Source of the DNA: a virus | Virus record (IMG/VR): IMGVR_UViG_3300046004_001904 | Coordinates: 1-20,976 of that record | Length of the DNA: 20,976 bases | Reading direction: 5' to 3' (one strand) | Shown: one piece after another, positions 196 to 2,690 of the stretch | Position numbering within the stretch: position 1 is the first letter of the stretch | Layout: each line of letters begins with the position of its first letter | Notes under the pieces: model-generated | The model's database searches: none | What the model was told of the DNA's origin: nothing | The model's input: only the letters and a program-made list of their open reading frames with translations | Made by a program: the position numbers and the translations under genes

Positions 196-1101
196 ATGCC
201 ACATACTGTGGGTTATTGTTGTATTAATACTGTATTAAATAAACAAAAAATTACCACTGGTCGAGGCATGATTCAACGTACTTTCAAAGCACGTGGACTT
301 GCGTACGCATCTGAGTTGGCATTAGCAAACGCTATTGATTTAGTAAAAATTATTCGATGGAATGAAGATCATAATATTAAAGTATTCCGTGTAGGCTCTG
401 GTATTTTTCCGTGGGGAAGTGAATATAATTTACACGATTTACCTAATTATACAGAAATTGCCGATATGTTACGGCATGCTGGTAATTTGGCAAACAGTTT
501 TGGACAACGTATTACTGCTCACCCCGATCACTTTGTAAAACTTGGTTCAACTAAGCCTACTGTTGTTGAGAATTCAATCAAAGATCTTGAACTCCATTCT
601 ACCGTATTTGATCTTATGGGTCTTACGGCAACTCCGTATAATGCGTTAAACATTCACGTTGGAATGAATTTCTCCGAAGAAGTGGCGTCCCGTTGGATTG
701 CTGCGTATAATCGATTGTCTCCAAATTGTAAAGCACGACTCGTAGTAGAAAATGACGACAAAGCATCGTCATTCTCAGTTATACAGTTGTTTACTTACTT
801 ACATTCCGCTCTCAATATTCCTATTACGTTCGACTACTTCCATCACCAATTTCACCCAGATGGATTGTCTACACAAGATGCCGCCGAACTATCTGCAGGC
901 ACGTGGCCAGAAAATATAGTTCCATTGTTTCATTACAGTGAATCTAAAAATCTCAATGAAAATGTCACGGGCAATCCTCGCGCTCACGCAGATTATGTAT
1001 TCAATAAAATTGACGATTTTGGCATGACCCTCGACTTTGACCTGGAAGCAAAAGCTAAAGAACTTGCACTGTTCAAATACAGAGAAATTGCAAATGTCTG
1101 A
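196..1101 (+). CDS. uvdE: UV damage endonuclease, UvdE/UvsE family
   Basis: This is a 301-residue protein of the UvdE family, TIM-barrel metal-dependent enzymes that nick DNA 5' of UV photoproducts to begin alternative excision repair. The length is normal and the family signature runs end to end. It has the VGYCCIN start (residues 5-11), GSGIFPWGS (68-75), AHPDHF with H109 and H112, NIHVG with H154, VENDD with E185, FDYFHHQFHP with D213 and H216/H217, LFHYS with H246, AHADY with H264 and a LEAKAKELAL tail near 283-292. These His, Asp and Glu residues match the family's metal ligands. A GTGAGG ribosome site lies at 186-191. It is probably an early phage gene repairing phage DNA in sunlit water. 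Its last codons overlap the next gene by 8 bp. Confidence 0.93.
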   Translation: MPHTVGYCCINTVLNKQKITTGRGMIQRTFKARGLAYASELALANAIDLVKIIRWNEDHNIKVFRVGSGIFPWGSEYNLHDLPNYTEIADMLRHAGNLANSFGQRITAHPDHFVKLGSTKPTVVENSIKDLELHSTVFDLMGLTATPYNALNIHVGMNFSEEVASRWIAAYNRLSPNCKARLVVENDDKASSFSVIQLFTYLHSALNIPITFDYFHHQFHPDGLSTQDAAELSAGTWPENIVPLFHYSESKNLNENVTGNPRAHADYVFNKIDDFGMTLDFDLEAKAKELALFKYREIANV

Positions 1102-1381
1102 AAATAACGCATATGTGTATGGACATTATAAAGCTGATACCGGTGAATTATTTTATATTGGTAAGGGAACGGGTAAACGTGCGTGGCATAAATCTAACAG
1201 AAATGTATACTGGTATAATGTGGTTAATAAATATGGATACACTGTAAAAATATTACACGAAGGTTTATCAGAGGAAGATGCGTATAGCATGGAACGCAAA
1301 CTAATATTGGAAGTAGGTTTGGAAAATCTTACCAATATGACTGAAGGTGGGTACGGTCTTACTTCCGAAGCAGTAAAATAG
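1094..1381 (+). CDS. GIY-YIG nuclease domain protein, probably truncated by a frameshift
   Basis: The ATG at 1094 overlaps the uvdE stop (1099-1101) and gives a 95-residue product. It has the GIY-YIG fold order: YVYGHY (about residues 6-11) as the GIY part, FYIGKGTGKRAWH with the YIG triad and the conserved Arg, an A-x-x-M-E-x-x-L helix with the metal-binding Glu, and LTNMTEGGYG typical of phage GIY-YIG enzymes. An upstream in-frame ATG at 1037 would lie inside uvdE and adds residues unlike the family, so 1094 is preferred. The frame stops at TAG 1379-1381, but the sequence continues to look coding in the -1 frame up to 1524. It is likely a homing-type or free-standing DNA nuclease. Whether this copy is active is unclear. 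Confidence 0.8.
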   Translation: MSENNAYVYGHYKADTGELFYIGKGTGKRAWHKSNRNVYWYNVVNKYGYTVKILHEGLSEEDAYSMERKLILEVGLENLTNMTEGGYGLTSEAVK

Positions 1382-1524
1382 AATTTTATGAAAAGTATCA
1401 TTTCACAAGAAACACCCAGATAGAAAAAGACGAACTACGGCGTAAAGAAATAATACGTGAATTGAACTGTAAATTTATAATATTAACTGAAGAAACTATA
1501 TTTAACTGGAAAGAATTATTATGA
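1378..1524 (+). pseudogene. Out-of-frame C-terminal continuation of the GIY-YIG nuclease
   Basis: Straight after the TAG at 1379-1381, the -1 frame stays open for 48 codons (ATA at 1378 to TGA at 1522-1524). It encodes a charged segment starting IEFYEKYHFTRN and ending IFNWKELL. The segment contains KDELRRKEIIREL followed by CKFIIL-x-E, a helix-strand pattern typical of the C-terminal part of phage nucleases of this type. Its stop overlaps the next gene's ATG as ATGA, the usual coupling for a real gene end. The frame change can be placed at AAAA 1375-1378 just before the stop. It may be a -1 'shifty stop', a decayed gene, or a one-base assembly error. There is no separate good start codon for this piece. 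Confidence 0.6.
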
Positions 1525-2144
1525 TGATATCTTGGGCTATTACAACGCACAATGAAGGCGAATACATCCAGAATCTACTGAGCCAGTTGGTTCCATTTTG
1601 TGAGCTGACTGGAGATGAAATTGTGGTAGTTGATGATTACTCCACCGATGAATTTACAGTAGCATTGTTAGACGCATATGCAACTGGTGGTGAGATTAAA
1701 CTAATTAAACATGCCTTAAACAATAATTTTGCGGAACATAAGAACTTTCTGACAGAGCAATGTTCAGGAGATTACATTTTTCAAGTAGATGCCGATGAAA
1801 CCTTGCATACAAATTTATTGACGTATATTCATGACCTTATTGAACACAATCCGCAGATTGATTTGTTTGCTATTCCACGGGTCAACGTGGTGACGGGATT
1901 AACCGACGAGGATATTGCAAAGTGGGGATGGCAAGTCAATGATAAGGGATGGAATTGCTGGCCGGATTACCAGCACAGAGTTTACCGTAATCACGCAGAT
2001 ATCAAATGGGAAGGAAAGGTTCACGAACGTATTGTAGGATATAAAAATATGGCACCGTTGCCCGACGAAGAAGAATGGGCACTGTACCATATTAAGGATA
2101 TTGACCGTCAACGGCTGCAAAACGAGTTTTATAGCCAACTATAA
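1521..2144 (+). CDS. Glycosyltransferase family 2-like protein
   Basis: This 207-residue protein has the GT-A fold signature of family 2 glycosyltransferases: ISWAITTHNEGEYI at the start, VVVDDYSTDE (residues 35-44, nucleotide binding), and FQVDADET with the DAD metal motif at 90-92. The C-terminal half has a WEGKVHERI segment, common in small 'SunS/WaaE-like' GT2 enzymes. It is shorter than cellular GT2 proteins but normal for phage ones. The substrate is unknown. Phage enzymes of this kind may modify DNA bases, capsid or host surface glycans. ATGATG at 1521-1526 offers two starts, and the first overlaps the preceding out-of-frame segment as ATGA. A GGAAAG ribosome site lies at 1508-1513. 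Confidence 0.82.
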   Translation: MMISWAITTHNEGEYIQNLLSQLVPFCELTGDEIVVVDDYSTDEFTVALLDAYATGGEIKLIKHALNNNFAEHKNFLTEQCSGDYIFQVDADETLHTNLLTYIHDLIEHNPQIDLFAIPRVNVVTGLTDEDIAKWGWQVNDKGWNCWPDYQHRVYRNHADIKWEGKVHERIVGYKNMAPLPDEEEWALYHIKDIDRQRLQNEFYSQL

Positions 2145-2156
2145 ACCGAGAAATTT

Positions 2157-2690
2157 ATGATTAAAAAACTATTACCGCTTATAATTTTAATGTATGCAAT
2201 ATACGCAACAAATAAAATTCCAACATTCACAATGAACAAAGTCCCCAAATCACAACCCACACAAACAGAACTATTCATGGACAGAATTGCCCGTATTGAA
2301 AGTGGTGGGAACTATAAAGTAGTCAATCAATATGGAATGATGGGAAAATATCAGTTCAGCCCAAGTACAGTGCGCGCTTTGGGGTTTAGAATGACACCAC
2401 GACAATTCTTACAGAACGAAGATATTCAAGATACTGTTATGTTAGCGTACATGAAAGCAAACTATCGGGAATTAAAAAATCTTATTGACCGATACGACGG
2501 TAAAACTAAACACGGTATTAAGATTACCCGAGCAGGAATTCTTGCTGGCGCACATTTTGCAGGTAGTGGAGGTGTTGTTGCCTACTTGACTTCTAATGAT
2601 GAACATGGTATAATTGATGGTAACGGCACATCTATACAAAAATATATGTCATCGTTTAGCAATTTCAAATTGCCACCACTATCATTATAG
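2157..2690 (+). CDS. Lytic transglycosylase-like protein with N-terminal membrane anchor
   Basis: This is a 177-residue protein. Residues 3-18 are hydrophobic after KK and form a signal sequence or weak anchor. After a polar linker the catalytic domain (about 40-150) shows RIARIESGGNY with the likely catalytic E48, YGMMGKYQFSPSTVRALGF as in lysozyme-like transglycosylases, and AGILAGAHFAGSGGVVAYL near 126-144, a conserved helix of the fold. It should cleave peptidoglycan in the periplasm. The weakly hydrophobic N-terminus, without a clear signal-peptidase site, would suit a signal-arrest-release endolysin, but a virion or export role is equally possible. It may supply the muralytic activity that the gp5-like protein here lacks. 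A GAGAAA site precedes the start. Confidence 0.78.
   Translation: MIKKLLPLIILMYAIYATNKIPTFTMNKVPKSQPTQTELFMDRIARIESGGNYKVVNQYGMMGKYQFSPSTVRALGFRMTPRQFLQNEDIQDTVMLAYMKANYRELKNLIDRYDGKTKHGIKITRAGILAGAHFAGSGGVVAYLTSNDEHGIIDGNGTSIQKYMSSFSNFKLPPLSL

Follow-up and report, generated by a model that had tools for sequence, protein, structure and literature searches.

Does the gap between a UV-damage endonuclease gene and a glycosyltransferase (GT) gene in a T4-like phage hold one nuclease read across a shifty stop codon, or pieces of different genes? The sequence analyzed here, called the window, is a 20,976-base IMG/VR virus fragment represented by a single metagenome contig, and its ORF list reads as including T4-like tail genes. 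In the gap, the start ATG of a 95-codon ORF at position 1094 overlaps the stop TGA of the UvdE-type gene (1099 to 1101). The ORF ends at TAG 1379 to 1381, directly preceded by AAAA (1375 to 1378). From position 1378 the −1 frame is open for 48 codons (IEFYEKYHF...NWKELL), and its stop TGA (1522 to 1524) overlaps the GT start ATG at 1521 as ATGA. The original prediction had described the TAG after AAAA, the 48-codon −1 frame and the ATGA overlap at the correct coordinates, and it had interpreted them as a GIY-YIG nuclease split between two frames. Our analyses strongly favor another explanation: positions 1080 to 1520 are very probably what remains of two free-standing homing endonuclease genes (HEGs), a deletion or recombination scar rather than one frameshifted enzyme (Table 1).

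Table 1. Features of the window in and around the endonuclease slot
Feature	Coordinates	Strand	Remarks
UvdE-type UV-damage endonuclease gene	196..1101	+	Left flank of the slot; Pfam UvdE, 6.5e-50
Foreign insert between backbone genes	1080..1520	.	Absent or replaced in relatives; boundaries from blastn
GIY-YIG homing endonuclease, N-terminal 95 codons	1094..1381	+	Catalytic domain kept, C-terminal DNA-binding region missing
Junction region GTAAAATAG	1372..1381	+	GIY-YIG similarity ends and EDxHD similarity begins (alignments)
EDxHD/Vsr-like homing endonuclease 3′ stub, 48 codons	1378..1524	+	−1 frame; EDxHD profile, E 1.1e-10
Family 2 glycosyltransferase (GT) gene	1521..2144	+	Right flank of the slot; Pfam Glycos_transf_2, 2.1e-17

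The 95-codon ORF encodes a GIY-YIG domain without its C-terminal region

The GIY-YIG domain is genuine, as had been proposed. The segment matches the homing endonuclease family phrog_314 (1.7e-10, PHROGs), and 62 phage records match it. In an alignment of 18 sequences, residues Y9, H11, F20, Y21, I22, G23, G25, R29, E67 and I71 are invariant and N81 is nearly so; all are present in the window ORF. The predicted structure of the 95-residue ORF has a mean pLDDT of 85, with low confidence for residues 84 to 95, and its top fold matches are PD-T4-3, UvrC N-terminal domains and R.Hpy188I. In its catalytic domain and the conserved residues Y, Y, R, E and N, the ORF thus resembles free-standing GIY-YIG HEGs such as the T4 Seg proteins and I-TevI-like members of phrog_314. 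The free-standing HEGs of T4 are likewise intergenic and overlap the upstream gene (PMC2988022).

Unlike its intact relatives, however, the window ORF lacks the whole C-terminal DNA-binding region. Most GIY-YIG relatives have 188 to 291 residues, with C-terminal repeat or NUMOD-like regions that are missing from the window ORF, which ends at residue 95. The closest relative, L002, is 75% identical over residues 1 to 92 and is an unbroken ORF of 291 residues; another, L006, is 62% identical and also unbroken (209 to 214 residues). Both occupy the same slot between the UvdE-type and GT genes. Short or broken GIY-YIG ORFs were found in L014 (84 residues), L020 (106 residues) and L149 (73 residues). 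The last of these, at L149:463-684, is a short fragment near an intact EDxHD endonuclease gene, beside a baseplate gene, and is perhaps another broken endonuclease.

Among the GIY-YIG homologues we found no unbroken form of 143 residues, the length that the two frames together would give. The C termini of the intact homologues are unrelated to the 48-residue tail, which scored 0.5 bits, i.e., no match, against a model of intact GIY-YIG relatives. The proposal of a roughly 143-residue enzyme thus finds no counterpart among the homologues compared.

The −1 frame encodes the C terminus of an EDxHD-type endonuclease

The 48-residue tail had no match in Pfam, PHROGs or NCBIfam. An early best match was the C terminus of a 334-residue ORF from an uncultured huge phage, and the region around it was used to seek further relatives in other phages and viral contigs. 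An apparent match to L021 was dropped as a chance KDELRRKE stretch within an unrelated protein of 1,198 residues. The domain, which is of the EDxHD type, is common in viral contigs, where it was found in 344 stretches that share the motifs QHAENGGE...GYWVDGYD...IEYDExxH...KDxxRQxEI...LKCKFIR. It is C-terminal in ORFs of 160 to 440 residues whose N termini are NUMOD3 or zinc-finger-like. NUMOD3 was recognized in the L022 ORF, which is related to that of L083. In the EDxHD proteins tested (among L124-L203, L022, L083 and L074), Pfam and NCBIfam recognize only the NUMOD-like parts.

We built an EDxHD profile from 63 domains and searched it against the 572 six-frame segments of the window. The tail matched with an E-value of 1.1e-10 over model positions 56 to 96 of 101, and the alignment starts exactly at base 1378, the first residue of the tail. 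The −1-frame residues WVRSYFRSSK, encoded ahead of 1378, were considered as an extension of the EDxHD part and dropped because the profile alignment begins at 1378. The other six-frame segments gave no significant match to the profile. The tail scored 35.5 bits and the best of 2,000 shuffled sequences 8.8 bits. Given this difference and the E-value among 572 segments, the homology is far above chance. By these sequence comparisons, the tail represents the last 48 residues of a homing endonuclease of the EDxHD/Vsr-like family and not the remainder of the GIY-YIG enzyme. The original prediction was thus right that the tail derives from a nuclease, but not that it continues the same one.

The family assignment of the EDxHD domain comes from fold comparison, as searches of PDB sequences with the domain found no related entry. 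The modeled domain (L083/L124; pLDDT 90) matched the catalytic domain of I-Bth0305I (3r3p) by Foldseek with a probability of 0.97 and TM of 0.59 to 0.61, at high ranking and with a modest E-value (0.09). It also matched 3hrl, a putative endonuclease (probability 0.97 to 0.98 for 3hrl/3r3p, TM about 0.6). I-Bth0305I typifies the EDxHD homing endonucleases (PMC3943268), whose nuclease fold is Vsr-like. Residues E35, D44, H61 and D70 are conserved within the family and probably correspond to the E, D, H and D of the EDxHD motif.

The tail corresponds to the second half of the nuclease domain and has its conserved residues E, E, H, D, C and F. Ten positions of this retained part are invariant or nearly so in the family, and the tail keeps 9 of them. 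Of the four residues of the putative motif, it has the H and the second D. In contrast with intact EDxHD HEGs, the stub consists of these 48 residues only. The first half of the nuclease domain, and hence the conserved E35 and D44, is gone, as is the DNA-binding N terminus.

Intact counterparts of both parts occupy the same slot in other phages

The UvdE-type gene is a conserved neighbor across about 85 related loci. The gap between it and the GT gene is 0 to 34 bases in 34 of 55 distinct related loci, and 15 others have a spacer of 155 to 158 bases, with a small ORF in L057 and L059, the two examples looked at. Larger inserts occur in few loci: 640 bases in L006 (one GIY-YIG HEG), 1774 in L002 (two GIY-YIG HEGs in tandem) and 2668 in L083 (an EDxHD HEG plus other genes). 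The insert of the window measures 423 bases. In blastn comparisons with the nearest relative (L116/L023), similarity stops at position 1079 and resumes exactly at 1521. The slot is thus empty in most relatives and holds HEGs in L002, L006 and L083, a presence/absence polymorphism expected of homing genes.

The EDxHD ORF of L083 is intact, with 294 residues, and lies in the same UvdE-GT slot. It ends NWKATIQRELII, ...DNWKATIQRELII, with an ATGA overlap onto the GT gene; in the window, the tail finishes with ...FNWKELL and overlaps the GT gene in the same way. Together with L002 and L006, L083 shows that each half of the window composite has an intact same-slot counterpart in other phages. In none of the relatives was a GIY-YIG segment followed by this tail found.

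Some further features of the neighborhood vary among the relatives. In L083 (4900-6800) the slot also holds a small ORF and, by eye, an RtcB-type RNA ligase-like gene beside the EDxHD gene. In L074 (5703-6545) an EDxHD endonuclease gene is located one gene further on, between the GT gene and an IMP dehydrogenase-like gene. A gene that by eye resembles IMP dehydrogenase/GMP reductase also lies between the GT and transglycosylase genes in L002 (4502-5530) and L006 (4259-5299), and it is absent from the window (2144-2157). The match to L041 is only about 70% over positions 1521 to 2500 of the window, which cover the GT gene and the beginning of the transglycosylase gene, compared with roughly 82 to 96% for most of the UvdE-type gene and of the sequence beyond about 2500. 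L116 matches the right-hand side of the window at about 87%. These values suggest that the segment from 1521 to 2500 was exchanged as a block, with the endonuclease slot at its left edge.

Frameshifting and other explanations of the junction

At the junction the GIY-YIG similarity ends with SEAVK, comparable to SDLAK or SDDAK in relatives. Programmed −1 frameshifting, one of the explanations first offered, would have the lysine tRNA on AAA slip back at the UAG to yield a protein of ~143 residues with a functional tail. In favor of such a slip, AAA would re-pair perfectly with AAA, no stop interrupts the −1 frame over 48 codons, and the stub retains residues at positions conserved in its family. 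However, the site reads A GTA AAA TAG, and GTA-AAA does not form the tandem X XXY YYZ slippery heptamer. No stimulatory RNA structure was found in the 89 downstream bases, which are no more structured than shuffled sequences (z = +0.61; 147 of 200 shuffles fold as well or better). Comparative support is also absent, in that the two-frame arrangement is conserved in no GIY-YIG homologue found. Taken alone, an open −1 frame behind a shifty stop is unremarkable, as 8 of the 20 AAAA+stop sites in the window are followed by at least 30 open −1 codons. Moreover, a frameshift product would have no obvious use, because its tail amounts to half of a different nuclease domain, truncated so that the conserved E and D are missing. 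We therefore regard programmed frameshifting as very improbable. The clean 48-codon −1 frame and the good conservation of the stub do leave some room for some use. A low-level −1 slip at AAAA-TAG might produce a chimera of the GIY-YIG domain and the EDxHD half that is kept for a new role, which we consider extremely improbable. If true, frameshifting would have merged two selfish nucleases of unrelated families.

A natural in-frame fusion of GIY-YIG and EDxHD domains, whose middle and reading frame were later lost, would account for the presence of both domains in the right order and on the right strand, and HEGs are modular. However, among 5,073 ORFs from 203 loci, 32 of them GIY-YIG and 88 EDxHD, no ORF contains both domains, and the EDxHD ORFs have N-terminal zinc-finger or NUMOD-like regions of their own. 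Tandem separate genes were found instead, with EDxHD and GIY-YIG HEGs side by side and 67 bp apart in L195, and such an ancestral fusion seems highly improbable. A sequencing or assembly error is somewhat easier to envisage, be it a miscalled base in the A-run or a wrong join of phage variants carrying a GIY-YIG and an EDxHD HEG. The sequence is a single metagenome contig, and related phages have either HEG in this slot. A scan of other viral contigs with the A-run length left free found no second copy of the junction, which thus rests on one contig. Nevertheless, a miscalled base would leave the two-family chimera as it is: even in a single frame the sequence would join halves of two genes, so that a one-base error does not rescue the split-enzyme reading. 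The backbone flanks are continuous on both sides, and the variants would probably have only a few junction bases in common, not enough for a k-mer assembler to join them. The junction could be a rare variant, an assembly join is less likely, and error as a whole appears improbable. Finally, the 95-residue protein might be kept as a functional small nuclease, e.g., a domesticated non-homing one, with the tail serving as a 5′ leader of the GT gene. All conserved GIY-YIG residues are present, the fold is predicted, and the ORF is intact without other damage. Yet nearly all relatives have a long C-terminal region, and only short or fragmentary counterparts were seen (L014, L020 and L149), which makes this explanation unlikely.

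Proposed origin of the scar

The two-HEG relic is thus the explanation that we favor, and it agrees with one option of the original prediction, that of a recently dead gene. Two HEGs would once have occupied the gap between the uvdE-like and GT genes of a T4-like phage, either in tandem in one genome or brought together by recombination between two phages. A deletion or illegitimate recombination would then have fused GIY-YIG codon 95 to the last 48 EDxHD codons, out of frame. As no relative has the undeleted tandem of both HEGs in this exact slot, the deletion is inferred. The break is probably fairly recent, to judge from the stub, where 9 of 10 strongly conserved positions remain. Ribosomes starting at ATG 1094 would most likely stop at TAG 1379 and release a 95-residue catalytic domain without its DNA-binding and targeting region, with presumable loss of homing, and the EDxHD stub would not be translated as a nuclease. 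Its 3′ end would persist probably because its last bases supply the translation start region of the GT gene.

A parallel is I-TevIII of T4, an HNH homing endonuclease that lost its activity through a large deletion and whose intact form is found in a relative (PMC2988022). The window similarly shows a phage HEG broken by what appears to be a deletion, with intact forms in relatives; it differs in combining the remains of two HEG families, and in that these lie in an intergenic slot and not in an intron. The promoters embedded in T4 HEGs, which favor HEG retention (PMC2988022), represent a related case to a stub that carries the GT start region. Nuclease genes also mark exchange boundaries between phages (PMC10448857), with which a slot at the edge of an exchanged gene block is consistent. 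HEG decay by deletion and HEGs at exchange boundaries are both known, and a slot scarred by two families adds a new case.

For annotation, the locus is a trap, in that an open frame past a shifty stop mimics frameshifting and yet is the stub of another gene. The scar is ordinary in kind and the mosaic slot mildly informative: it documents HEG turnover at one phage intergenic slot, which is found empty, with a single GIY-YIG HEG, with tandem GIY-YIG HEGs, with an EDxHD HEG or, in the window, with what is very probably a two-family scar.
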